Notes under the pieces: model-generated
Told to the model about the DNA's origin: nothing
The model's database searches: none
Seen by the model: only the letters and a program-made list of their open reading frames with translations
DNA from: Chryseobacterium sp. BLS98
GTDB taxonomy: Bacteria; Bacteroidota; Bacteroidia; Flavobacteriales; Weeksellaceae
Length of the DNA: 64,000 nucleotides
Direction of reading: 5' to 3'
Assembly (NCBI RefSeq): GCF_001045445.1
Contig: NZ_LFNF01000005.1
Span: forward strand, 372,001-436,000
Made by a program: the position numbers and the translations under genes
Part shown: piece after piece, positions 6,402 through 27,706 of the stretch
How positions within the stretch are numbered: the first letter of the stretch is position 1
How the letters are laid out: every line of letters begins with the position of its first letter

Positions 6402-8711
6402 ATGCAAACGCACATTCTTGGCAGCCCGCGTATTGGCCGCCACCGAGAACTCAAAAAAGCCTGCGAGCAATATTGGTCAGGCAAAGCATCATTAAATGAA
6501 CTCCTTGAAACCGAGAAAACCATCTGCAGGCAGAACTGGAAGATGCAGCAGGAAGCAGGAATTGACCTGATCCCCTGCAACGATTTCTCTTATTACGATC
6601 AGGTTTTGGATATGACCTTAACTGTTGGAGCTATTCCGGAGCGCTACAGCGAAATCAGAACCTCACATTCTGAACTTGACCTTTATTTTGCAATGGCCAG
6701 AGGTTACCAGCATGAAGGTCTGGATGTTACCGCTATGGAAATGACAAAATGGTTCGACACTAATTACCATTATATTGTCCCCGAATTTCAAAAAAACCAG
6801 CAGTTCAGATTATTTTCAAAAAAAATCATCAGTGAATTTATCCATGCAAAACAGGCCGGAATAAATGCCAAACCTGTAATCATAGGACCTCTAACCTATC
6901 TTCTTCTGGGAAAAGAGAAAGAAGACGGCTTTGATAAACTTGACCTTATAGAAAATCTTCTTCCGGTATATATCGAAATTCTGAAAGAACTGGAAAGCCA
7001 TGGAGCTGGTTGGATTCAGCTTGATGAACCTTTCTTAGGTCTTGACCTTACGGAAAAAGCAAAAGAAATTTATCAATCCGCTTATGCCGAAATCAGGAAA
7101 CAGTTCCCGGATCTTAAATTCATTCTCGCGACTTATTTTGAAGGCTTAAAAGACAACCTTTCGCTGGCCGCATCGCTTCCTGCAGACGTTCTTCATATTG
7201 ATCTGGTACGCTGCCCTGAACAGCTGGATGAAGTTCTACATACCATTCCTCCAACATTAAGCCTGTCTTTAGGCATTGTAGACGGAAGAAACATCTGGAA
7301 AAATAATTTTGAAAAATCTTTGGCCTTCATTGAAAAAGCAGTGAATACTATTGGTTCTGAAAGAGTCTTTATTGCTCCTTCATGTTCTCTTCTCCACTCA
7401 CCCTTCGATCTTGATCTGGAAATTGACGAAAAAATGCTGTCTCCTGAAATTAAGCAATGGATGGCTTTTGCCAAACAGAAAGTACACGAGATTGTAGCCT
7501 TAAAAAAGCTGGCATCAGGAAACGCAGATTATCAGGCATTACAGCACTATGCAGAAAATAAAAAAGCTGTTGATACCCGAAAAACTTCCCCTCTCATTCA
7601 TAATCAGAAAGTAAAGGACCGTGTAGAGGTAATCACTGAGGATGATGCACGGAGAAACAATCCGTTCAGGATTAGAAAAGAAGAACAGCAGAAAATCTTA
7701 CAGCTTCCTTTATTTCCCACTACAACAATTGGTTCTTTTCCCCAGACCAAAGAGGTAAGAACCTGGAGATCAAAATTCAAAAAAGGGGACCTGACTGCGG
7801 AACAATATGACACCCTTCTAAAAAAAGAAAAGGAACGAACCATCCGCTGGCAGGAAGAAACCGGAATTGATGTACTGGTTCACGGAGAATTTGAACGCAA
7901 CGATATGGTGGAATATTTCGGGGAACAGCTTTCAGGCTTTGCCTTCACACAAAACGGATGGGTCCAGAGTTACGGAAGCCGTTGTGTAAAACCTCCGGTC
8001 ATCTATGGTGATGTTCACCGTCCGCACCCTATGACGGTTTACTGGTCACAATATGCCCAGTCTCTGACGCAAAAATGGGTAAAAGGAATGCTTACAGGCC
8101 CAGTCACGATCCTGCAATGGTCTTTTGTGCGTGATGACCAGCCTCGTTCTTTAATCTGTAAACAGATCGCACTGGCGATTCGCGATGAAGTAAACGACCT
8201 GGAAAAGGCAGGGATCAGAATTATACAGATTGATGAACCGGCCATCAGAGAAGGACTTCCCCTTAGAAGATCCGGATGGGAGGAATACCTGAAATGGGCA
8301 GTGGAAGCTTTCAGAATTTCGGCAAGCGGTGTGGAAGATGCCACACAGATTCATACGCATATGTGCTATTCCGAATTTAATGATATTATCCAGAATATAG
8401 CAGACATGGATGCCGATGTCATCACTATAGAATGCTCCAGAAGCCAGATGGAACTGCTGCAGGCTTTTGCAGATTTCAAATACCCGAATGAGATCGGGCC
8501 GGGAGTTTACGATATTCACTCTCCGAGAGTTCCTTCAAAAGAGGAAATGATTGAGCTGTTGAAGAAAGCACAAGCCGTTATTCCCGCACAGCAGCTGTGG
8601 GTAAATCCTGACTGTGGATTGAAAACCCGGCACTGGGATGAAACGGAAAAAGCACTGACTGCGATGGTAGAAGCTTCGAGGGAGGCAGCCACCGTTCATA
8701 TAAAACAGTAA
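6402..8711 (+). CDS. metE: cobalamin-independent methionine synthase
   Basis: 769 residues, the usual MetE length, catalysing methyl transfer from 5-methyltetrahydropteroyl-triglutamate to homocysteine, the last step of methionine synthesis. The N-terminal domain starts MQTHILGSPRIGRHRELK; the catalytic domain begins at FPTTTIGSFPQT (about residue 438). The zinc ligands are all present: His and Cys in IHTHMCYSEF (about 653 and 655), Glu in VITIECSRS (about 677) and Cys738 in NPDCGLKTR. It is preceded by a B12 riboswitch and followed by a strong terminator, so it is a single-gene unit. The riboswitch implies that a B12-dependent MetH exists elsewhere in the genome. Confidence 0.98.
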   Translation: MQTHILGSPRIGRHRELKKACEQYWSGKASLNELLETEKTICRQNWKMQQEAGIDLIPCNDFSYYDQVLDMTLTVGAIPERYSEIRTSHSELDLYFAMARGYQHEGLDVTAMEMTKWFDTNYHYIVPEFQKNQQFRLFSKKIISEFIHAKQAGINAKPVIIGPLTYLLLGKEKEDGFDKLDLIENLLPVYIEILKELESHGAGWIQLDEPFLGLDLTEKAKEIYQSAYAEIRKQFPDLKFILATYFEGLKDNLSLAASLPADVLHIDLVRCPEQLDEVLHTIPPTLSLSLGIVDGRNIWKNNFEKSLAFIEKAVNTIGSERVFIAPSCSLLHSPFDLDLEIDEKMLSPEIKQWMAFAKQKVHEIVALKKLASGNADYQALQHYAENKKAVDTRKTSPLIHNQKVKDRVEVITEDDARRNNPFRIRKEEQQKILQLPLFPTTTIGSFPQTKEVRTWRSKFKKGDLTAEQYDTLLKKEKERTIRWQEETGIDVLVHGEFERNDMVEYFGEQLSGFAFTQNGWVQSYGSRCVKPPVIYGDVHRPHPMTVYWSQYAQSLTQKWVKGMLTGPVTILQWSFVRDDQPRSLICKQIALAIRDEVNDLEKAGIRIIQIDEPAIREGLPLRRSGWEEYLKWAVEAFRISASGVEDATQIHTHMCYSEFNDIIQNIADMDADVITIECSRSQMELLQAFADFKYPNEIGPGVYDIHSPRVPSKEEMIELLKKAQAVIPAQQLWVNPDCGLKTRHWDETEKALTAMVEASREAATVHIKQ

Positions 8712-20509: not shown

Positions 20510-21640
20510 TTATTTCGGGAGCTGTGGAGCTCTCATTTTGTATTGATAACTGTGCAGTGTTTTCAGGAAGTTTTCCAAATCCGTGAGTTCAGTATCGGTA
20601 AGATTCAGTTTTTCCAGCATACCGGATTTTTTCGGGGCCAGCGGGCTGTCTCTGTTTCTTTTTTCGTTCGGCATTCCTGCGTTGTACATATTCAGGACTC
20701 CCCTGATGTTCGGAAACAGGCCGTTATGCATATAAGGAGCCGTCTGCGATACCTCTCTTAAAGTAGGTGTTTTAAATTTCCCTACATCTTCATTCTTTTT
20801 ACTGATATTATAAAGCCCGAGATCTTCATATTCCCTTCCGAAATAGGTAAGACCTACATTATGAAATTTCTGATCTGAAAAATAAGGTGTATTGTGGCAA
20901 TTGATACAGTTCGCTTTTGTTCTGAACAGATGAAGTCCGTTAATCTCCGAATCCGTCAGTATATCCTTCTCACCTCCTACAAATTTGTCAAACTTTGATT
21001 TTGGACTGACAATCGTTCTTTCAAAAGTAGCAATGGCTTTAACGATATTTTCTTCTGTAATTTTATCATCACCAAAAGCTTTCTGAAAATACTCTTTATA
21101 ACCTTTGATCTTGGCAATTCTTTTCACAGCAAGCCTTGAATGAAGATTCATTTCCACCGGATTTTCTATAGGTGCTTTTGCCTGTTCTTCCAGGGTTGCA
21201 GCCCTTCCGTCCCAGAAATATTCTTTGGCGTAAATAATATTCAGGATTGTGGGTGTATTTCTTGTTCCCTGCTGCCTGTCGTGGCCATAAGCTACCCTTC
21301 TTCCATCTGCCCAGGCCAGTTCAGGATCATGGCAGTTGGCACAGGAAATCTGTCCTGATGCGGAAAGCCTCGGATCAAAGAAAAGTACTTTTCCCAACTC
21401 TTCCTTATCTTTGGAATAGGGATTGTCTTTGGGAAACTCAGGTTTGGACATAGGACCTATATCTTTAAACCCTTCTTGGGCTTCATCAAATAAATGAGGT
21501 TTCGGCCAAAGGTCGTAATTTCCGCTTCCATACAGGTCTCTCAATTCCTGATTGGTATACCCTTTCCGGATATTTCCAAAATCAGAAAAGGAATAAATGG
21601 CAAACAATACTGCCGAAAGCGGCAAAAAATATTTCTTCAT
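20510..21640 (-). CDS. di-heme cytochrome c peroxidase / MauG family protein
   Basis: 376 residues with an N-terminal signal segment (KKYFLPLSAVLFAIYSFSDF), so periplasmic. Two c-type heme sites are present, CANCHDP and CINCHNT, with the family block GTRNTPTILNIIYAKEYFWD and WDGRA between them and PYMHNGLF near the C-terminus. Classical members reduce H2O2 with cytochrome electrons; MauG relatives oxidise proteins or metal complexes. It is the last gene of a four-gene operon, 3 bases behind the barrel protein gene, and that setting suggests chemistry linked to the imported or exported ligand. Confidence 0.92.
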   Translation of the reverse strand: MKKYFLPLSAVLFAIYSFSDFGNIRKGYTNQELRDLYGSGNYDLWPKPHLFDEAQEGFKDIGPMSKPEFPKDNPYSKDKEELGKVLFFDPRLSASGQISCANCHDPELAWADGRRVAYGHDRQQGTRNTPTILNIIYAKEYFWDGRAATLEEQAKAPIENPVEMNLHSRLAVKRIAKIKGYKEYFQKAFGDDKITEENIVKAIATFERTIVSPKSKFDKFVGGEKDILTDSEINGLHLFRTKANCINCHNTPYFSDQKFHNVGLTYFGREYEDLGLYNISKKNEDVGKFKTPTLREVSQTAPYMHNGLFPNIRGVLNMYNAGMPNEKRNRDSPLAPKKSGMLEKLNLTDTELTDLENFLKTLHSYQYKMRAPQLPK

Positions 21641-21643
21641 CTT

Positions 21644-23215
21644 CTAATAAAACAGGGATATGCCCGCATTAAAATACAGATTCGGGTTTCCGTTGTATTC
21701 TGTATTCTGTTCCAGTCTTTTGTTCAGCGCGAACAGTGTTGCAAAATTAGTAAATATTTTCAGGTCTGTTTTAGAAGTTACCTTCTGATAAAACTGAAGT
21801 CCGAACTGAGGTCCCATTTTTGAAGTACTGTCGAATTCATGATCGTTCCGGATCACATTATCATACAGCAAAGTATTGGACGAGGCCGTCTGGTAATCAA
21901 GGCTTGTACTTAAAGAAAAATAAGACATTGCTCCTACTTCCAGATTTACTTTCTGCTTGTCTGTAAAGTAAATATCTTTATTGAATTTCAGATTAATGCT
22001 CAGGCTTTTCACATATTTATACGTTGAGCCAAGGAGATCAATTGCGGAAAAGTCGCTGTAAACTGCTTCCAGTGTAGTTCCCAGCTTTATTTTTTCCCCT
22101 TCTCTCAAAAGAAAATGGTTGGCCGTTGCTACTCTGTCCAGTGTCATCCTGTAGTTTTGCCCGAACTCTGCATTATTGTAATTGTCACCTGTAATACTTT
22201 GGAAATTCACGTTGGACATGAAATCCATTTTGTCTCCTTTGTACCAGTAATTGGCATCCGTACGGTAATTGACCAAACGGTATTTCATTTTTTCCAGGCT
22301 TTCGTCAAAGTAGGTGGATCCTACTGCTGAATTTCTTTTTTCACCATCGTTTCCGAAAAGGTCCTGCATTTTTTTGCTGTAAGAAAAATTGATGTTGAAG
22401 AAATTTCTCCCGTTCTCAAATGCATATCCTCCTCCAAAGTTTTTATCAATAGTTCTGTAACTGTAATCCGTATACGACGGGAAATAAATCAGCCTGCCGT
22501 ATCCGTTGGAAAATCTTACGTAATACTCGTTATTTGCCGGTGCATTAACAGATTCATTCACTGCCATCAGATCATAGGTTTCTGATCTCCTTCCCAAACC
22601 TCCGAAAACTGAAAGCTGATGTTTTCCCAAGCGGTACCCGGCAAATAACTTCCCTGAATAATCTGCCGTATTGATATCCGGTCTCGGATCGGATTTTCTG
22701 TATGAACTCTGGTTTTTATAATCAATCACAGCTCCAAGTTCAAGGCCTTTCCAGGCATTATAGGACATTCCTCCCTGTACATGGTAGTTTTGTGTTTCCC
22801 AATTGGCTTTTTTAGGTACAAAAAGATAATTCGGGTTCAGTACGGGCTGATCCTCGGTTCTTCCGTTCGTGAGATTGAAACCAAGATTTTTTTCTGTGAT
22901 AAACTGATAGTCAAAACTTCCTAAAAGTCTTAATTTTTCAGAGATATTAAAGATGCCCTGTGTTTTAAAACCATATTCGTAAGAGCTTTCCGCTGTTTGT
23001 ACTCTCTTCATATTGAGATCCTTTACCATAGCGCTCAGTTCAGTTTCTGTAAAATCTGAAAACTTCTGCTTCGAAAACTGGATGGGGTTTTCCCATATTC
23101 TGCCTAACTGGTTGTAATAGACCTGGTTTCTTGGGATAAAAATGCTGTCATGCAGCTGCGCCGAAGCACAACCGAATGACAGTATAGGAATTATATATAA
23201 AGTCTTAAATTTCAT
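21644..23215 (-). CDS. outer-membrane beta-barrel protein, DUF6850-like
   Basis: 523 residues with a signal peptide (MKFKTLYIIPILSFGCASAQ) and alternating aromatic/polar strands through to a C-terminal aromatic residue (GISLFY), as expected for a transported barrel. From memory the family matches DUF6850, which accompanies DUF4876 proteins in Bacteroidota; that label is less certain than the barrel call. Its gene is 9 bases after the DUF4876 gene and 3 bases before the peroxidase gene. Substrate unknown. Confidence 0.78.
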   Translation of the reverse strand: MKFKTLYIIPILSFGCASAQLHDSIFIPRNQVYYNQLGRIWENPIQFSKQKFSDFTETELSAMVKDLNMKRVQTAESSYEYGFKTQGIFNISEKLRLLGSFDYQFITEKNLGFNLTNGRTEDQPVLNPNYLFVPKKANWETQNYHVQGGMSYNAWKGLELGAVIDYKNQSSYRKSDPRPDINTADYSGKLFAGYRLGKHQLSVFGGLGRRSETYDLMAVNESVNAPANNEYYVRFSNGYGRLIYFPSYTDYSYRTIDKNFGGGYAFENGRNFFNINFSYSKKMQDLFGNDGEKRNSAVGSTYFDESLEKMKYRLVNYRTDANYWYKGDKMDFMSNVNFQSITGDNYNNAEFGQNYRMTLDRVATANHFLLREGEKIKLGTTLEAVYSDFSAIDLLGSTYKYVKSLSINLKFNKDIYFTDKQKVNLEVGAMSYFSLSTSLDYQTASSNTLLYDNVIRNDHEFDSTSKMGPQFGLQFYQKVTSKTDLKIFTNFATLFALNKRLEQNTEYNGNPNLYFNAGISLFY

Positions 23216-23224
23216 TTCCTTTTA

Positions 23225-24592
23225 TTACTGGAAACCTCTTGGGTTTGCCGTTTGTTTTACAAAATCGTTTGCTGAGTTGTTGGTATCTTCCAGAACTTTT
23301 CTTTTGCCTCCGTTATTAGGAAGATCTACCAATGCTTTTGTCTTTCTGATCACAGCCTGGGAATTAAAGGCAGCATCACAGGCGATGGATGCAGCATCAA
23401 TGGAAGCACTTAGCATTTTTGGTCTCTGAGAATTGGGATTATTGTGCTGAAGATCTACCCCGTCAATAATGGCGCTGTTTGGAATTTGCTTAAAGTATCT
23501 GGTATTGGAGTTAACGGTTGTTACCGACGGATCGGAATAATTAGGAAGTGCATTCAGATCATCAATTCTGAAGATCACAAAGCTGTCTCTTCCTAAGTTG
23601 TCCATAATAAAATCGTTATTCGGGCTCCAGTATCCTGTTCTTCCCCAGTAAGCAATCTGCATATCCGGTACTGCGGGATTCTGAATATCAAATTTATAAA
23701 CGGGCTGACCGATAGAAAGATTATAATCTCCTAAATACACTTCAAAATTAGCGGTACTCAAATCTACCGTCAGTGAAGGGTTTTGAATGGTAATCGGGTT
23801 TCCTGTGTTATCTACTAAAGGTGCTTTGTGATTCACTCCGTTTTGGGCAATCACAATGCTTTCTCCTGGCAAAATCGGATATTGTGTTCCGTTTCCTGGA
23901 ACTTTTAAAATATAATCAGCATAAGCATAGTCTGTATTGGCTGTATTTCCCATCGTCATACCGATAGATTTGCTCCAGTCGAACTGTCCGTTAGCCTGAG
24001 AATAACTATTGTTGGTTGCCGTATTTACTTTTCCATAAAGTTGTCCAATGTAAAGCCCATCTGCATAGATGATCTGATCAGAGTTGTTATAAATTTCAAT
24101 AAACTGGTCTCTGAAACTTGCTCCCTGCAAAGCATGTGATCCGGCATAATAAATCTGCTTAATCAAAAGATCACCTACTCTGGCTCCTTTCACCTCTACG
24201 AAAGTGGATTGTATATTGGCGCTGACAATGGCATTTTCCTGAACCCCGTTAAAGCTCATTTCCCCGGAAGCCGCCTGGTATCCGAATGTTGTAAGAAATT
24301 CGTCTGCAAGCATTTTTTTAGATACGGTAATTTTGTAAGTCCCTGGAATAACATTCTGAAAATTGGCATATCCATTCGCATCAGTATCCAGTGTATAAGT
24401 GTCCCCTGAATTATTATTGGTCATTACCACCGTTGCTTTTTTAGTCTGCTTATCTCCGTAAACTGCTTTATCATATGATACCTTTACCTGGTAAGCAACC
24501 GGCTGCAAAGAGGTACCGCCGTTTCCAAAATCGTCATCACGACAGGAAACAAGCATCAGTATTATTGTTAAAAAACTCAATAACTGTTTCAT
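23225..24592 (-). CDS. DUF4876-type lipoprotein
   Basis: 455 residues with a lipobox (MKQLLSFLTIILMLVSC, Cys17) followed by an acidic RDDDF tether, so probably surface or outer-membrane anchored. A beta-rich Cna-B/carboxypeptidase-like region (about 30-110; DANGYANFQNVIPGTYKI) is followed by a lamin-tail-like segment (about 145-200; DQFIEIYNNSDQIIYADG) ending in RKVLEDTNNSANDF. These features fit DUF4876. It is paired with the TonB receptor gene 24 bases upstream, the way SusD-like lipoproteins pair with SusC, but it is not SusD. Confidence 0.85.
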   Translation of the reverse strand: MKQLLSFLTIILMLVSCRDDDFGNGGTSLQPVAYQVKVSYDKAVYGDKQTKKATVVMTNNNSGDTYTLDTDANGYANFQNVIPGTYKITVSKKMLADEFLTTFGYQAASGEMSFNGVQENAIVSANIQSTFVEVKGARVGDLLIKQIYYAGSHALQGASFRDQFIEIYNNSDQIIYADGLYIGQLYGKVNTATNNSYSQANGQFDWSKSIGMTMGNTANTDYAYADYILKVPGNGTQYPILPGESIVIAQNGVNHKAPLVDNTGNPITIQNPSLTVDLSTANFEVYLGDYNLSIGQPVYKFDIQNPAVPDMQIAYWGRTGYWSPNNDFIMDNLGRDSFVIFRIDDLNALPNYSDPSVTTVNSNTRYFKQIPNSAIIDGVDLQHNNPNSQRPKMLSASIDAASIACDAAFNSQAVIRKTKALVDLPNNGGKRKVLEDTNNSANDFVKQTANPRGFQ

Positions 24593-24616
24593 AGTGTTTA
24601 TTTTTTATAGTAAGTA

Positions 24617-27355
24617 TTAAAATTGATATTCTATTTTGGCTCCGAAAGAAAGTTTCAGAAGATCGGTTTTCAGTGTTTCAATAGTTGCCCCGTTCTCGGT
24701 TTTTGTCTGGATCTGCTTTAAATCAAGGAAATTATTGGCATAAAAAGAAAATTTAAATCCGTTTTGGAAGTCTTTGGAAATTTTAAGGTTGAAATTATGA
24801 AAGACCTTTCCCAACTTTGAATTTTCCTCATCCACATCATTATCCTTAATGCTGGTAAACTGTGTAGGATCATTGATCTGCTCAGGAGTCAGCATTACTT
24901 TTTCCATATTGGTATTGATGTATGCATATAGAACTTTCGGGTTATAGATCAGCTTATCATCGATGAAGAAATGCTGGGTACGCAAGGAAATAACGAGTCC
25001 CGCTTTCGGGAGATGGTAATTCACTGCAGCACTTACCGTCATTTGTTTGTACTGTGATTCCACAGATCTGTATAAGCCGTATATTGCTCCGTCAGCAAGA
25101 GTTTTGGAGTCTTTATAACGGTCTACACTGGAATTGTTCTTTGTTTCCACATAACTTCCGTTAATATCCAGACTGATATTTTTTATCGGAAGCTTGTTAA
25201 GATTCATCATTAATTCCAGTCCTTTATCTTCTGATTTAAGGCTGTTGACAATCCTGTTCTGCAGATAGTAGAAATTATTATACCCGATTACATCATAGGT
25301 CGGCGTATTGGTTCCGTCATAATTGATCTGAAGCTTTGCCTGCTGTCTTTTTGATGCATAATATTCGTTGGTAAAGCCATCATATAGTTTATTGTAGTAA
25401 GCTGTAAGCCCTACGTTACCATAGGCAAATTTATAATCGACTCCTATTTCAGAACGGATACTTTTTGATGGTTTCAGATCTTTATTGTCAGCAAAATCTA
25501 CAAAAGTCTGTACTACACCAAGGTTATAATATCCTGGAAGCCTTACATCGGCGAGAACCTGGTCATAGTATCTTGGTCCTGTATAGATCATATTGATGGA
25601 TGGGGCTTTGGATGCAATTCCAAAACCTCCCCTGAATTTGAAATTCTTATAGATAAGGTATGAATTGATTCTCGGCTGCAGCACAGAAGCTCCGAACTGA
25701 TTATCAAATCTCACCCCGACATTTAAATTGAAAATATAATTCCCGAATCTTTTGAATACATTGTCTTCTGCATAAACAGAGTATTGATATTCAGCCCTTA
25801 CATTCTGCCCGAAATTATAGGGTCTGAAAGCCTGACCGCCACCCGCAAAAGGAGTAATAAGCGTTTCCGGAGTTCCCAGTCTTCCTGCGCCTTTATTGTC
25901 GCTGCTTCTTAATGAGGTTCCCACTAAGAAATTATGGATCCATTCACGTTCTGTTTTAAGATTCTTTTTAAGCTCGGCAGAAAGAAACATGGAAATAGGC
26001 TTTCCTTCCACTTCCTGTACCTGTCTGTAATTAATCGGGGTATACGAGCCTGTGTAAACGCCATCTGCAGTACTTGTTCCTACAATCTTACCTCCGGTAT
26101 TCACAAGTTTGGAATCATAGGTATTCTGGTAAGCCTGGCTGTAGTTTGCATTGATGCTTAAATTATCTACGAATGCATCTTTGAATCTCCAGTTAAAACG
26201 GTTCGATATTTTGAAGGATATGTTTTTATTTTTAATGATCTGCTTGGAAGCATCTTCTTCCTCGAAATTGGCATTGTCGAAATTATCACCATAATCCAGG
26301 GAAACGGAATTGCTGATGTTCTTGTTTTTGTTGTAAACCGTCCACATCAAGCTGGTAGTTACCCTTTGATAGTGGTTGAACTTCGTTCTGGGATCTGAAT
26401 TTGAACTTAAATAATTGACATTAACATTTAAGAATCCTAACTTATCATTAATCTTAAGCCCTTTATTAAGGTTAAACTCCTGTGTTCCTTCTCTTAAAGC
26501 AATATAAGCCCTGTATGGGGTCTTCCCGCTTTTCTGCTGGATATTAACCAGACCGGAAGTAAGGTCTCCGTATTTAGCAGACGGAATTCCCTGAACCACC
26601 TCCACACTTTCAATATTTTCTACAGGAATCTCTCTGAGGTCGACTCCGAAATTAGCGTTGGAAAAATAACCGTTATAACCGTTTCCCTTTCCGAATCCCA
26701 GCATATTGGGATTGAACAGTGAACCTTCATTACTTAAAACCGGTGATATGGTAGAATAATTTCCAGTATATCCCTGCATATTCTCATTATTGGAGATAGG
26801 AATCCCGTCTACAACAATCGCAGTACCGAAGGACTTATTCCCGAAGCCATCTGCACCTGTTCTTGTTAAAGATTCAAGATTTGTTGAACGGAAAACAATC
26901 GGTTTAAATTCATTAAGGGAAAGGTTTCTCTGTTTCTGCCCTGGAATCTGCTCCAGAACCTCGTTCAGTGAAAATGCCTGGATATTTTTAAGAGCCTCTT
27001 CCTTAATCTCAATCTCAGAATAATTTTTCTTTTTGGCAGCCAGTGCAATTTCCTTAATACGGATTGACGCAGCCTGCATTTCTACAGTGATTCCCTCAGC
27101 AGGTACAACGGTATATGTTTTTCTTTTTTCAAGAAGTCCGGATCTTGAAAATACCAGCGTCTCATTAGTTTGATAATTAATCTTAAATAGTCCCGAATTG
27201 TCAGTTACCGTCCAGATTCCGGTATTATCCACACCGACCTTAACTCCCGAAACAGGCTTCTTACTATCCGCTGCCACTACAATTCCGGTAATAGTCTGAC
27301 CACTTACGGAAAGAATAACGAACTGAAAAGCAAGCAGTAATACTTTTTTCTTCAA
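24617..27355 (-). CDS. TonB-dependent outer-membrane receptor
   Basis: About 912 residues. Signal peptide (ends VSGQ), a CarboxypepD-reg-like domain (about 22-95; GIVVAADSKKPVSGVKVG), a plug domain (about 125-275; GTAIVVDGIPISNN, VESVEVVQGIPSAKYGDLTSG) and a C-terminal barrel ending in YQF. No TonB-energised STN signalling domain is seen. No ATG is available at the front; I chose TTG at 27355, giving MKKKVLLLAF. A TTG three codons upstream lies only 8 bases from the -7 box (TAGTTTTG, complement of 27372-27379), so the shorter form is favoured. First gene of the envelope operon. Confidence 0.92.
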   Translation of the reverse strand: MKKKVLLLAFQFVILSVSGQTITGIVVAADSKKPVSGVKVGVDNTGIWTVTDNSGLFKINYQTNETLVFSRSGLLEKRKTYTVVPAEGITVEMQAASIRIKEIALAAKKKNYSEIEIKEEALKNIQAFSLNEVLEQIPGQKQRNLSLNEFKPIVFRSTNLESLTRTGADGFGNKSFGTAIVVDGIPISNNENMQGYTGNYSTISPVLSNEGSLFNPNMLGFGKGNGYNGYFSNANFGVDLREIPVENIESVEVVQGIPSAKYGDLTSGLVNIQQKSGKTPYRAYIALREGTQEFNLNKGLKINDKLGFLNVNVNYLSSNSDPRTKFNHYQRVTTSLMWTVYNKNKNISNSVSLDYGDNFDNANFEEEDASKQIIKNKNISFKISNRFNWRFKDAFVDNLSINANYSQAYQNTYDSKLVNTGGKIVGTSTADGVYTGSYTPINYRQVQEVEGKPISMFLSAELKKNLKTEREWIHNFLVGTSLRSSDNKGAGRLGTPETLITPFAGGGQAFRPYNFGQNVRAEYQYSVYAEDNVFKRFGNYIFNLNVGVRFDNQFGASVLQPRINSYLIYKNFKFRGGFGIASKAPSINMIYTGPRYYDQVLADVRLPGYYNLGVVQTFVDFADNKDLKPSKSIRSEIGVDYKFAYGNVGLTAYYNKLYDGFTNEYYASKRQQAKLQINYDGTNTPTYDVIGYNNFYYLQNRIVNSLKSEDKGLELMMNLNKLPIKNISLDINGSYVETKNNSSVDRYKDSKTLADGAIYGLYRSVESQYKQMTVSAAVNYHLPKAGLVISLRTQHFFIDDKLIYNPKVLYAYINTNMEKVMLTPEQINDPTQFTSIKDNDVDEENSKLGKVFHNFNLKISKDFQNGFKFSFYANNFLDLKQIQTKTENGATIETLKTDLLKLSFGAKIEYQF

Positions 27356-27364
27356 CTTTAACAA

Positions 27365-27674
27365 TTTTCGGCAAAACTATTTATAATTTTTCTAAATAAA
27401 AATAAAAACCATCTAATTTTTCATGATTTTTTTCTTCACAAATTGTGGAATTATTTAATCTGGCCTATATTTTAATTAAAAATCAATAAAAGCCCTGAAA
27501 TAATAGAGTAATAAAAAATTATGATTTATGAATCTTATACACTAAAAGAGATTTATGTATAAAAATGAAGAAATAATAAACCTTTTAGAATAGAAAATAA
27601 ACAATAATGTAAAAGGCTAAAAAATTATCATTTAAAAGTTACAGACTGGAATATTATATGTAAAATAACAGGAA
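27365..27674. other. AT-rich intergenic region upstream of the TonB receptor operon
   Basis: About 310 bases between the receptor start and the lpd terminator. It holds the -7 box TAGTTTTG for the receptor (complement of 27372-27379). I see no reading frame, no Fur-box-like 19-mer and no stable hairpin in the rest, which is mostly A/T runs. Confidence 0.6.
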
Positions 27675-27706
27675 CAAAAAAAGAGAAGCAAAATGCTTCT
27701 CTTTTA
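27675..27706 (-). terminator. intrinsic terminator of lpd
   Basis: Stem AAAAGAGAAGCA (27679-27690) with its complement (27694-27705), 3-base loop; on the minus strand it is followed by a T tract. Confidence 0.85.

Follow-up and report, generated by a model that had tools for sequence, protein, structure and literature searches.

Why should a cell short of iron invest two haems in an oxidising enzyme next to its iron receptor? The question is raised by a four-gene operon of Chryseobacterium sp. BLS98, located on the minus strand at positions 20510 to 27364 of a stretch of 64,000 nucleotides (contig NZ_LFNF01000005.1, positions 372,001 to 436,000), which is called the window here and to which coordinates refer. 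The operon encodes a TonB-dependent receptor (TBDT), a DUF4876 lipoprotein, a DUF6850 protein and a MauG/MbnH-like di-heme enzyme. DUF4876 and DUF6850 have no assigned function in Pfam, though the trio formed by the first three genes recurs across Bacteroidota; an operator common with iron genes, together with a redox enzyme in many relatives, now offers a testable function for these two orphan families. We favour, with some reserve, the reading of an iron-repressed outer-membrane acquisition operon with an enzyme that would oxidise the imported chelate, the weight of this statement lying on its iron part. Iron acquisition itself is likely; that the enzyme oxidises the cargo, rather than a partner protein or simply removing H2O2 itself, is put forward tentatively.

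The receptor gene (24617..27355) encodes a carboxypeptidase-regulatory-like N-terminal domain, and both the TonB barrel and the plug were matched in a Pfam scan. It is followed, on the same strand, by the genes for the DUF4876 lipoprotein (23225..24592; 455 aa; Pfam 5.3e-30), the DUF6850 protein (21644..23215; 523 aa; Pfam 8e-62) and the di-heme enzyme (20510..21640; 376 aa; Pfam CCP_MauG 6.5e-60). The longest open reading frame (ORF) of the receptor extends from 24617 to 27364, but translation probably starts at the TTG at 27355, because the alternative TTG at 27364 is missing in one aligned locus (L071) while that at 27355 is found in all 8 aligned rows, window included. A preliminary description of this DNA had proposed a single minus-strand transcription unit with a -7 box in front and a terminator behind. 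The intergenic gaps of 24, 9 and 3 bases were confirmed from the ORF coordinates, the Bacteroidota -7 promoter box TAGTTTTG was found again at 27379-27372 (minus strand), its position being matched in the upstream alignment, and the terminator corresponds to an intrinsic-terminator-like hairpin followed by T at 20505-20484 (minus strand). A single transcription unit is therefore supported by anatomy. A second terminator-like hairpin (27679..27705, minus strand) separates the upstream gene from the operon; terminator-like sites in the scanned stretch numbered 12, versus 5.4 in shuffles.

The conservation of this arrangement was then examined. DUF4876 was detected in 15 of 39 genomes of a congener sample and in 37 of 395 genomes of a phylum sample. 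Sixty stretches around DUF4876 matches were fetched from these two samples, and seven named contigs were added to them; for the phylum sample this meant at least one stretch per positive genome, and fewer than all matches. The nearest named contigs found, those of Chryseobacterium OV279 and OSA05B, encode DUF4876 proteins 91-92% identical to that of the window. With the window added and a duplicate removed (L072 is the same stretch as L050), 67 loci were compared, some of them from one genome. This set mixes congeners, phylum sample and named contigs that we ranked ourselves, and it is no unbiased draw. The gene caller takes the longest ORF, so that distances in the other loci are approximate, and stretches that stop at contig ends (L070, L085, L087, L089 and L094, for example) may miss genes.

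Receptor, DUF4876 and DUF6850 genes were strictly contiguous at 59 of the 67 loci. By rank, this held for 23 of the 24 loci within the genus, for 2 of 2 from another family in the same order, for 12 of 13 from other orders in the class and for 22 of 28 from other classes. A di-heme gene was found near the trio at 32 loci, directly behind the DUF6850 gene at 29 of them, and its distribution is far less even: 24 of 24, 2 of 2, 4 of 13 and 2 of 28 for the same ranks, that is, all 26 loci of the window's order versus 6 of 41 elsewhere. In the phylum sample, 9 of the 37 DUF4876-positive genomes had a di-heme gene within the fetched stretch. In a quick, midpoint-rooted receptor tree, the loci bearing the gene fell in one half, alongside loci without it. 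Since the trio is contiguous at 59 loci and the di-heme gene is present at only 32, the trio is the conserved core, and the di-heme enzyme is an addition found in some lineages. The co-occurrence check thus shows the four genes adjacent in many genomes, contrary to the rarity that would have spoken against the preliminary description, but the conserved unit is formed by the first three genes and not by all four.

What links the operon to iron is first of all a candidate operator. When the operon upstream regions of two congener groups were compared, they showed no overall alignment and a single common element of 23 bp, placed in opposite orientation. In the window this element, TTATTTAGAAAAATTATAAATAG (27377..27399, minus strand), overlaps the -7 box, where a bound repressor would block transcription, and it was present in all 8 window-type rows aligned. 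A first pattern, built from both versions of the element and from operon upstream regions only, was searched in the whole window genome (4.41 Mb, with the operon on contig C5). At two mismatches or fewer, 23 sites were found, versus 13 for the reversed-pattern control, and at one mismatch or fewer there were 9 sites, including the operon's own. Three of the eight outside sites precede the plug domain of a receptor, by 193, 192 and 164 bp (L125, L126 and L129). The genome has 47 plug-domain matches, 46 of which exceed the cut-off; on this basis, the binomial probability of finding three of eight sites within 250 bp before a receptor is about 1e-6 if sites may lie anywhere, and about 6e-4 if they are restricted to an assumed 12% of the genome. 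Another outside site (L131) lies between a TauD-like gene and the gene of a PLP decarboxylase, probably a siderophore synthesis enzyme, and two more precede type IX secretion system (T9SS)-type proteins (L130, and L128 at about 1 kb from the L129 receptor). The last two of the eight are a site before citrate synthase (L124) and one without clear gene (L127).

A refined pattern yielded 47 sites at three mismatches or fewer, a few overlapping sites being counted twice, versus 16 in the reversed control. Seventeen of the 47 had no assigned locus, and among those 17 the operon's own site and that of L143 were examined. Refined-pattern sites precede two more receptors (L139, 234 bp before the plug; L147, 224 bp), as well as FeoA (L135), a siderophore-interacting protein (L143) and a PepSY_TM protein (L156); an AhpC-family peroxiredoxin gene (L150) has an operator-like site with two mismatches 91 bp upstream. 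Because the longest ORF already includes the operator-like site in its first bases at L125, L131 and L139, distances for receptors were measured to the plug domain. The candidate iron regulon of the genome would then comprise TonB receptors, a siderophore-type decarboxylase, FeoA, the siderophore-interacting protein, the PepSY_TM protein and T9SS-type proteins, with the 23-bp operator in common.

The operator was also searched for in the other loci, with a weight matrix made from 11 hand-picked sites, the operon being excluded, and compared with 60 dinucleotide-keeping shuffles (a plain-shuffle fall-back was unneeded in the repeat run). The scoring left out L070, which lacks a receptor, as well as L085 and L090, both di-heme-free and with short upstream sequence. 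The matrix beat all 60 shuffles before 28 of the 31 scoreable di-heme-linked trios, versus 2 of the 33 other trios, with the proviso that, trained on the window genome alone, it may well miss other operator forms in distant classes. Positive loci included six that had played no part in making the pattern (L053, L054, L074, L092, L093 and L096). Two of these, from Sphingobacterium deserti (L053) and Parapedobacter composti (L054), have the di-heme gene divergent from the receptor gene, and the element (7047-7069 and 7167-7189, respectively) lies within the 89- and 75-bp regions between the two genes; the link to the element was therefore kept despite the changed gene order. We take the element to be similar to a 7-1-7 Fur box. 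It may be a Fur box, and the genome contains three FUR-family matches, one of them at 77 bits; a literature search for the Fur box in Flavobacteria found no paper. The operon thus appears to share its promoter operator with the candidate iron (Fur-type) regulon of its genome, by an argument that is partly circular.

Published data bear on the same point. In the part of PMC10434189 available to us, DUF4876 operons of gut and oral Bacteroidota are among the loci that respond strongly to iron depletion: PG1019-PG1022 of Porphyromonas gingivalis went up 20.8- to 214.5-fold, BT_3631, BT_3632 and BT_3633 of Bacteroides thetaiotaomicron 128-, 125- and 112-fold, and BT1933-39 3.5- to 7.4-fold. A DUF4876 gene is also among the changed genes of P. 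gingivalis in the accessible portions of two other papers (PMC10470040; PMC10101095), while those of a study of iron in Elizabethkingia (PMC7221216) and of one on Flavobacterium columnare (PMC6610971) contained nothing that could be tied to the operon. In the literature searched, no mention of DUF6850 was found, and no description of the four-gene combination or of a peroxide-driven step in iron uptake. The preliminary remark that no published description of the combination was known thus stands for the four genes together, but not for DUF4876-receptor operons, already described as iron-starvation loci (PMC10434189, same portion). The metal chelate, offered at the outset as an example, can be narrowed down: from the operator common with iron genes and the published induction of homologues, iron is now the likely class of cargo. 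Comparison and operator together give good grounds to assign the operon to iron acquisition. Its kind is known but has been little described, and the form found here differs by the presence of a MauG-like enzyme.

What, then, is this enzyme? It begins with a hydrophobic segment, read by eye as a signal peptide, and contains two haem-binding motifs, CANCH (residues 100-104; 21329..21343, minus strand) and CINCH (residues 245-249; 20894..20908, minus strand), whose Cys pairs and His are invariant in all 32 trio-linked enzymes. Met323, Pro372 and Pro375 are equally invariant, and a C-terminal tail, KMRxPxLP, is conserved. Its best structure matches are cytochrome c peroxidase (CcP) structures. 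However, at the position of a Met of bacterial CcP 1iqc, which is presumably a haem ligand, the enzyme has Tyr319 (20684..20686, minus strand), and Tyr occupies this position in all 32 trio-linked enzymes, all 12 others that were fetched and all 4 paralogues of the window genome. With two c-type haem motifs and a Tyr at the ligand position, it is by its predicted chemistry a MauG-like di-heme enzyme. The preliminary label of CcpA/MauG di-heme peroxidase is thus kept for the CCP_MauG fold and the two CXXCH motifs and given up for the CcpA type, since Tyr replaces Met as in MauG/MbnH-like enzymes; a classical CcpA peroxidase is ruled out, and 'peroxidase', judged by the aligned residue, is here a family label.

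The best NCBIfam matches were the MbnH family TIGR04039 (252.2 bits, cut-off 362.85) and MauG TIGR03791 (242.5 bits, equivalog cut-off 443.85), the latter score placing the enzyme outside the MauG equivalog. The MbnH cut-off cannot decide membership, because an MbnP-adjacent enzyme of the same genome scores still less with that model, its own best NCBIfam match (238.2 bits). The top structure match of the MbnP-adjacent enzyme, 6e1c, which we take to be an MbnH, also has a Tyr at the ligand position. The MbnP gene in question stands beside its di-heme gene at another place in the genome (L121:3989-9383, G000:C1), where a TonB receptor and a protein of the phenol-degradation family are encoded nearby. 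No MbnP was found among the nine proteins scanned against Pfam in and around the operon; this sets the operon apart from MbnP/MbnH systems, and a strict MbnP/MbnH pair is ruled out.

Nor is the enzyme exclusive to the trio, as homologues were found in other contexts. Those 64-70% identical (L194, L195 and L196) have a DUF3291-type gene in the neighbourhood, as judged by Pfam for L194 and L195. The genes closest to them include no receptor, and no operator beat all shuffles before either the di-heme or the DUF3291 gene (the best, at L194, was reached by 2 of 60 shuffles). Homologues about 52-58% identical accompany SusC/SusD pairs at four loci (L197, L198, L200 and L202, the last with an opposite-strand gene between). 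An operator precedes three of these four receptors (L197, L200 and L202), and at L202 another precedes the di-heme gene. The L197 and L198 loci each encode one further protein (523 and 492 residues, respectively) that has no Pfam match. Before five solo di-heme genes (L199, L201, L203, L204 and L205) no operator beat all shuffles, the best being that of L201 (4 of 60, and 1 of 60 in another run); overall, the matrix beat all shuffles before none of the eight receptor-less di-heme genes. In a quick enzyme tree, DUF4876-linked enzymes fell into more than one group, SusC/SusD-linked ones among them, with at least three changes of context; the rejection of a single clade of trio-linked enzymes on this tree was marginal (AU p = 0.0426). 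It thus looks as if receptor-lipoprotein pairs had recruited the di-heme enzyme as a module, the operator being associated with those copies that are linked to a receptor. One may speculate further that Tyr-ligand MauG-like enzymes form a portable iron-acquisition module, mounted on DUF4876 and SusC/SusD pairs under one operator and using H2O2 either for the release of iron from chelates after import or for making a partner's metal-binding site, a proposal that we advance as possible rather than probable. If true, it would amount to a peroxide-driven step in iron uptake.

The DUF4876 protein is a relative of PDB 4q1z, a 'Putative lipoprotein' (E 1.7e-29, or 5.5e-38 with profile). Its lipobox Cys17 opens the sequence CRDDDF (24527..24544, minus strand), and the RDDDF that follows the Cys resembles, without being identical to, the Bacteroidota export signals C-X-K-(D/E)2, SDDDD and SDDFE, shown in the accessible part of PMC5080379 to send lipoproteins to the surface; the protein may thus be surface-exposed. 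Candidate functional residues, from conservation in the DUF4876 rows, are His255 (65 of 67) and Asn169, Asp377 and Arg416 (67 of 67 each). The SusCD-like pair with a non-SusD lipoprotein, recognised in the preliminary description, was borne out by the contiguous TBDT and DUF4876 genes and by the lack of a SusD match at E 0.01 in the Pfam scan of the operon products. DUF4876 itself was also recovered, whereas the lamin tail attributed to it gave a weak match (0.0013), below its cut-off. As for the second beta-barrel, the DUF6850 family is established, and the barrel fold comes from a low-confidence model rich in long strands (mean pLDDT 50.4), for which the fold matches listed are in their majority outer-membrane barrels, with query-normalised TM-scores of at most 0.44; DUF6850 is therefore a possible outer-membrane beta barrel. 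This model and that of DUF4876 (mean pLDDT 53.0) are both too weak for use.

The following scheme would account for these observations. In iron-replete cells, a Fur-type repressor would occupy the 23-bp operator at the -7 box, and iron scarcity would allow the operon to be transcribed. The DUF4876 lipoprotein, probably at the surface, would capture an iron-containing ligand, the receptor would import it by TonB energy, and the DUF6850 protein may assist at the outer membrane. In many relatives, which we assume to be aerobic, a periplasmic MauG-like di-heme enzyme would be co-expressed; it would use H2O2 to reach a high-valent state and oxidise the imported chelate, so that iron is released. 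Oxidation of the cargo is slightly favoured over partner maturation and peroxide defence.

Several observations weigh against this scheme. Thirty-five of the 67 trio loci have no di-heme gene nearby, and three di-heme-linked operons (L080, L095 and L099) show no recognisable element. The closest homologues of the enzyme, those at 64-70% identity, belong to three congeners without DUF4876 match (G002, G016 and G020), which speaks against strict coupling. The operator evidence is partly circular: the pattern was made from congener groups A and B (with L077), and the sites used for training, detected through their similarity to that of the operon, were hand-picked for iron or T9SS neighbours. Sites also precede genes for which we know of no iron link, those of citrate synthase (L124), of a cNMP-binding protein (L148) and of an AMP-binding enzyme (L134), and one lies without clear gene (L127). 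Two haems in an enzyme made under iron starvation look costly. An iron response in the window's species is a prediction from the operator and from homologue data, and both structure models are poor.

Could the di-heme enzyme act instead on its neighbours, oxidising residues of the lipoprotein, of DUF6850 or of the receptor so as to create a metal- or ligand-binding site? MauG acts on pre-methylamine dehydrogenase, and MbnH on MbnP. The ligand-position Tyr of all 32 trio-linked enzymes, as in 6e1c, and the ranking of MbnH and MauG as best NCBIfam models are in keeping with such a maturase, and two tyrosines of the partners follow the enzyme: Tyr144 of DUF6850 (frequency 1.00 in di-heme-linked loci versus 0.24 in others) and Tyr815 of the receptor (1.00 versus 0.43). 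These contrasts, however, are confounded by phylogeny. In the di-heme-linked loci, conservation stays at or below 85% for every Trp found in the window's receptor, DUF4876 and DUF6850 proteins, which led us to reject a conserved partner Trp as the substrate, and the related enzymes beside SusC/SusD pairs would need other substrates. We consider partner maturation rather unlikely.

A plain periplasmic scavenger, removing H2O2 to guard against Fenton chemistry during import of iron or haem, would suit the CCP_MauG fold and its CcP structure matches, the rarity of the gene beside trios of other classes and the operator-like site of the AhpC-family gene. On the other hand, the Met of CcP is replaced by Tyr in every operonic enzyme, and MauG-type enzymes are poor peroxidases; peroxide defence as the sole role therefore seems doubtful to us. 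It is quite improbable that the metal is copper and the operon a variant of the MbnP/MbnH copper system with DUF4876 replacing MbnP: an MbnH-like enzyme is encoded with a receptor, and an MbnP gene with di-heme and receptor genes exists elsewhere in the genome, but the scanned proteins included no MbnP, further copies of the operator stand in front of FeoA, siderophore-type and receptor genes, and homologous operons respond to iron (PMC10434189, in the part available). A SusCD-kind locus for glycans or another nutrient with an unrelated redox enzyme, suggested by the receptor-lipoprotein architecture, by a weak RagA/SusC match (34.5 bits versus a cut-off of 368.25) and by a MauG-like protein of Flavobacterium johnsoniae listed with PhoX (Fjoh_2477) as induced by phosphate depletion (PMC8115612, accessible portion), is most improbable given the absence of any carbohydrate enzyme among the four products in Pfam, the operator common with iron genes and the published iron response of homologous operons.

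The neighbourhoods of di-heme-free trios deserve mention on their own account. At 11 loci (L082-L088, L090, L091, L094 and L098), such trios have near them a gene for a lipoprotein-like protein, about 300 residues long, in which a YGYLFGYPxHAVxFFVEA-like motif occurs; the single member scanned (L098) had no Pfam match. DUF4857-family genes, mostly with ABC-transporter genes, recur near seven others (L075, L076, L079, L101, L106, L109 and L113), an arrangement that resembles BT3625-3633, the family being assigned by clustering with one scanned member. PepSY as a general stand-in for the di-heme gene was discarded, a PepSY-like protein being found at only 2 of 68 loci.

Compared with known systems, the operon combines features of several. 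Its enzyme shares with bacterial CcpA (1iqc) the fold and the two CXXCH motifs, but has Tyr for Met, and GHDRQQG in place of GHKWQQG, the Trp of which presumably bridges the haems. With MauG it shares the fold family and the ligand-position Tyr, which we take MauG itself to have; the operon differs in that no methylamine dehydrogenase family is found among the four products. MbnP/MbnH pairs (PF20243, TIGR04039) are similar in the ligand-position Tyr and in a di-heme enzyme encoded with outer-membrane uptake genes, whereas the window operon has no MbnP, and an operator common with iron genes instead of a copper association. SusC/SusD pairs are alike in the receptor and lipoprotein, and have related di-heme enzymes beside four such loci, but the lipoprotein of the window is DUF4876, not SusD. 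'Thiol oxidoreductases' of the BT2473-2482 type are, we presume, di-haem proteins. The iron-induced BT2473-2482 locus, with a thiol oxidoreductase and a peptidase M75, is comparable in joining an oxidoreductase and a porin at an iron-starvation locus, with other partners (PMC10434189, available part). For the P. gingivalis and B. thetaiotaomicron DUF4876 operons, the same part of that paper lists no di-heme enzyme, and PepSY, ABC and DUF4857 genes stand beside BT_3631-3633, unlike in the window. These operons (PG1019-1022, BT_3631-3633 and BT_1938-1939) nevertheless resemble that of the window in having a TBDT beside DUF4876, and are induced by iron depletion (PMC10434189, as available), as we predict for the window operon.

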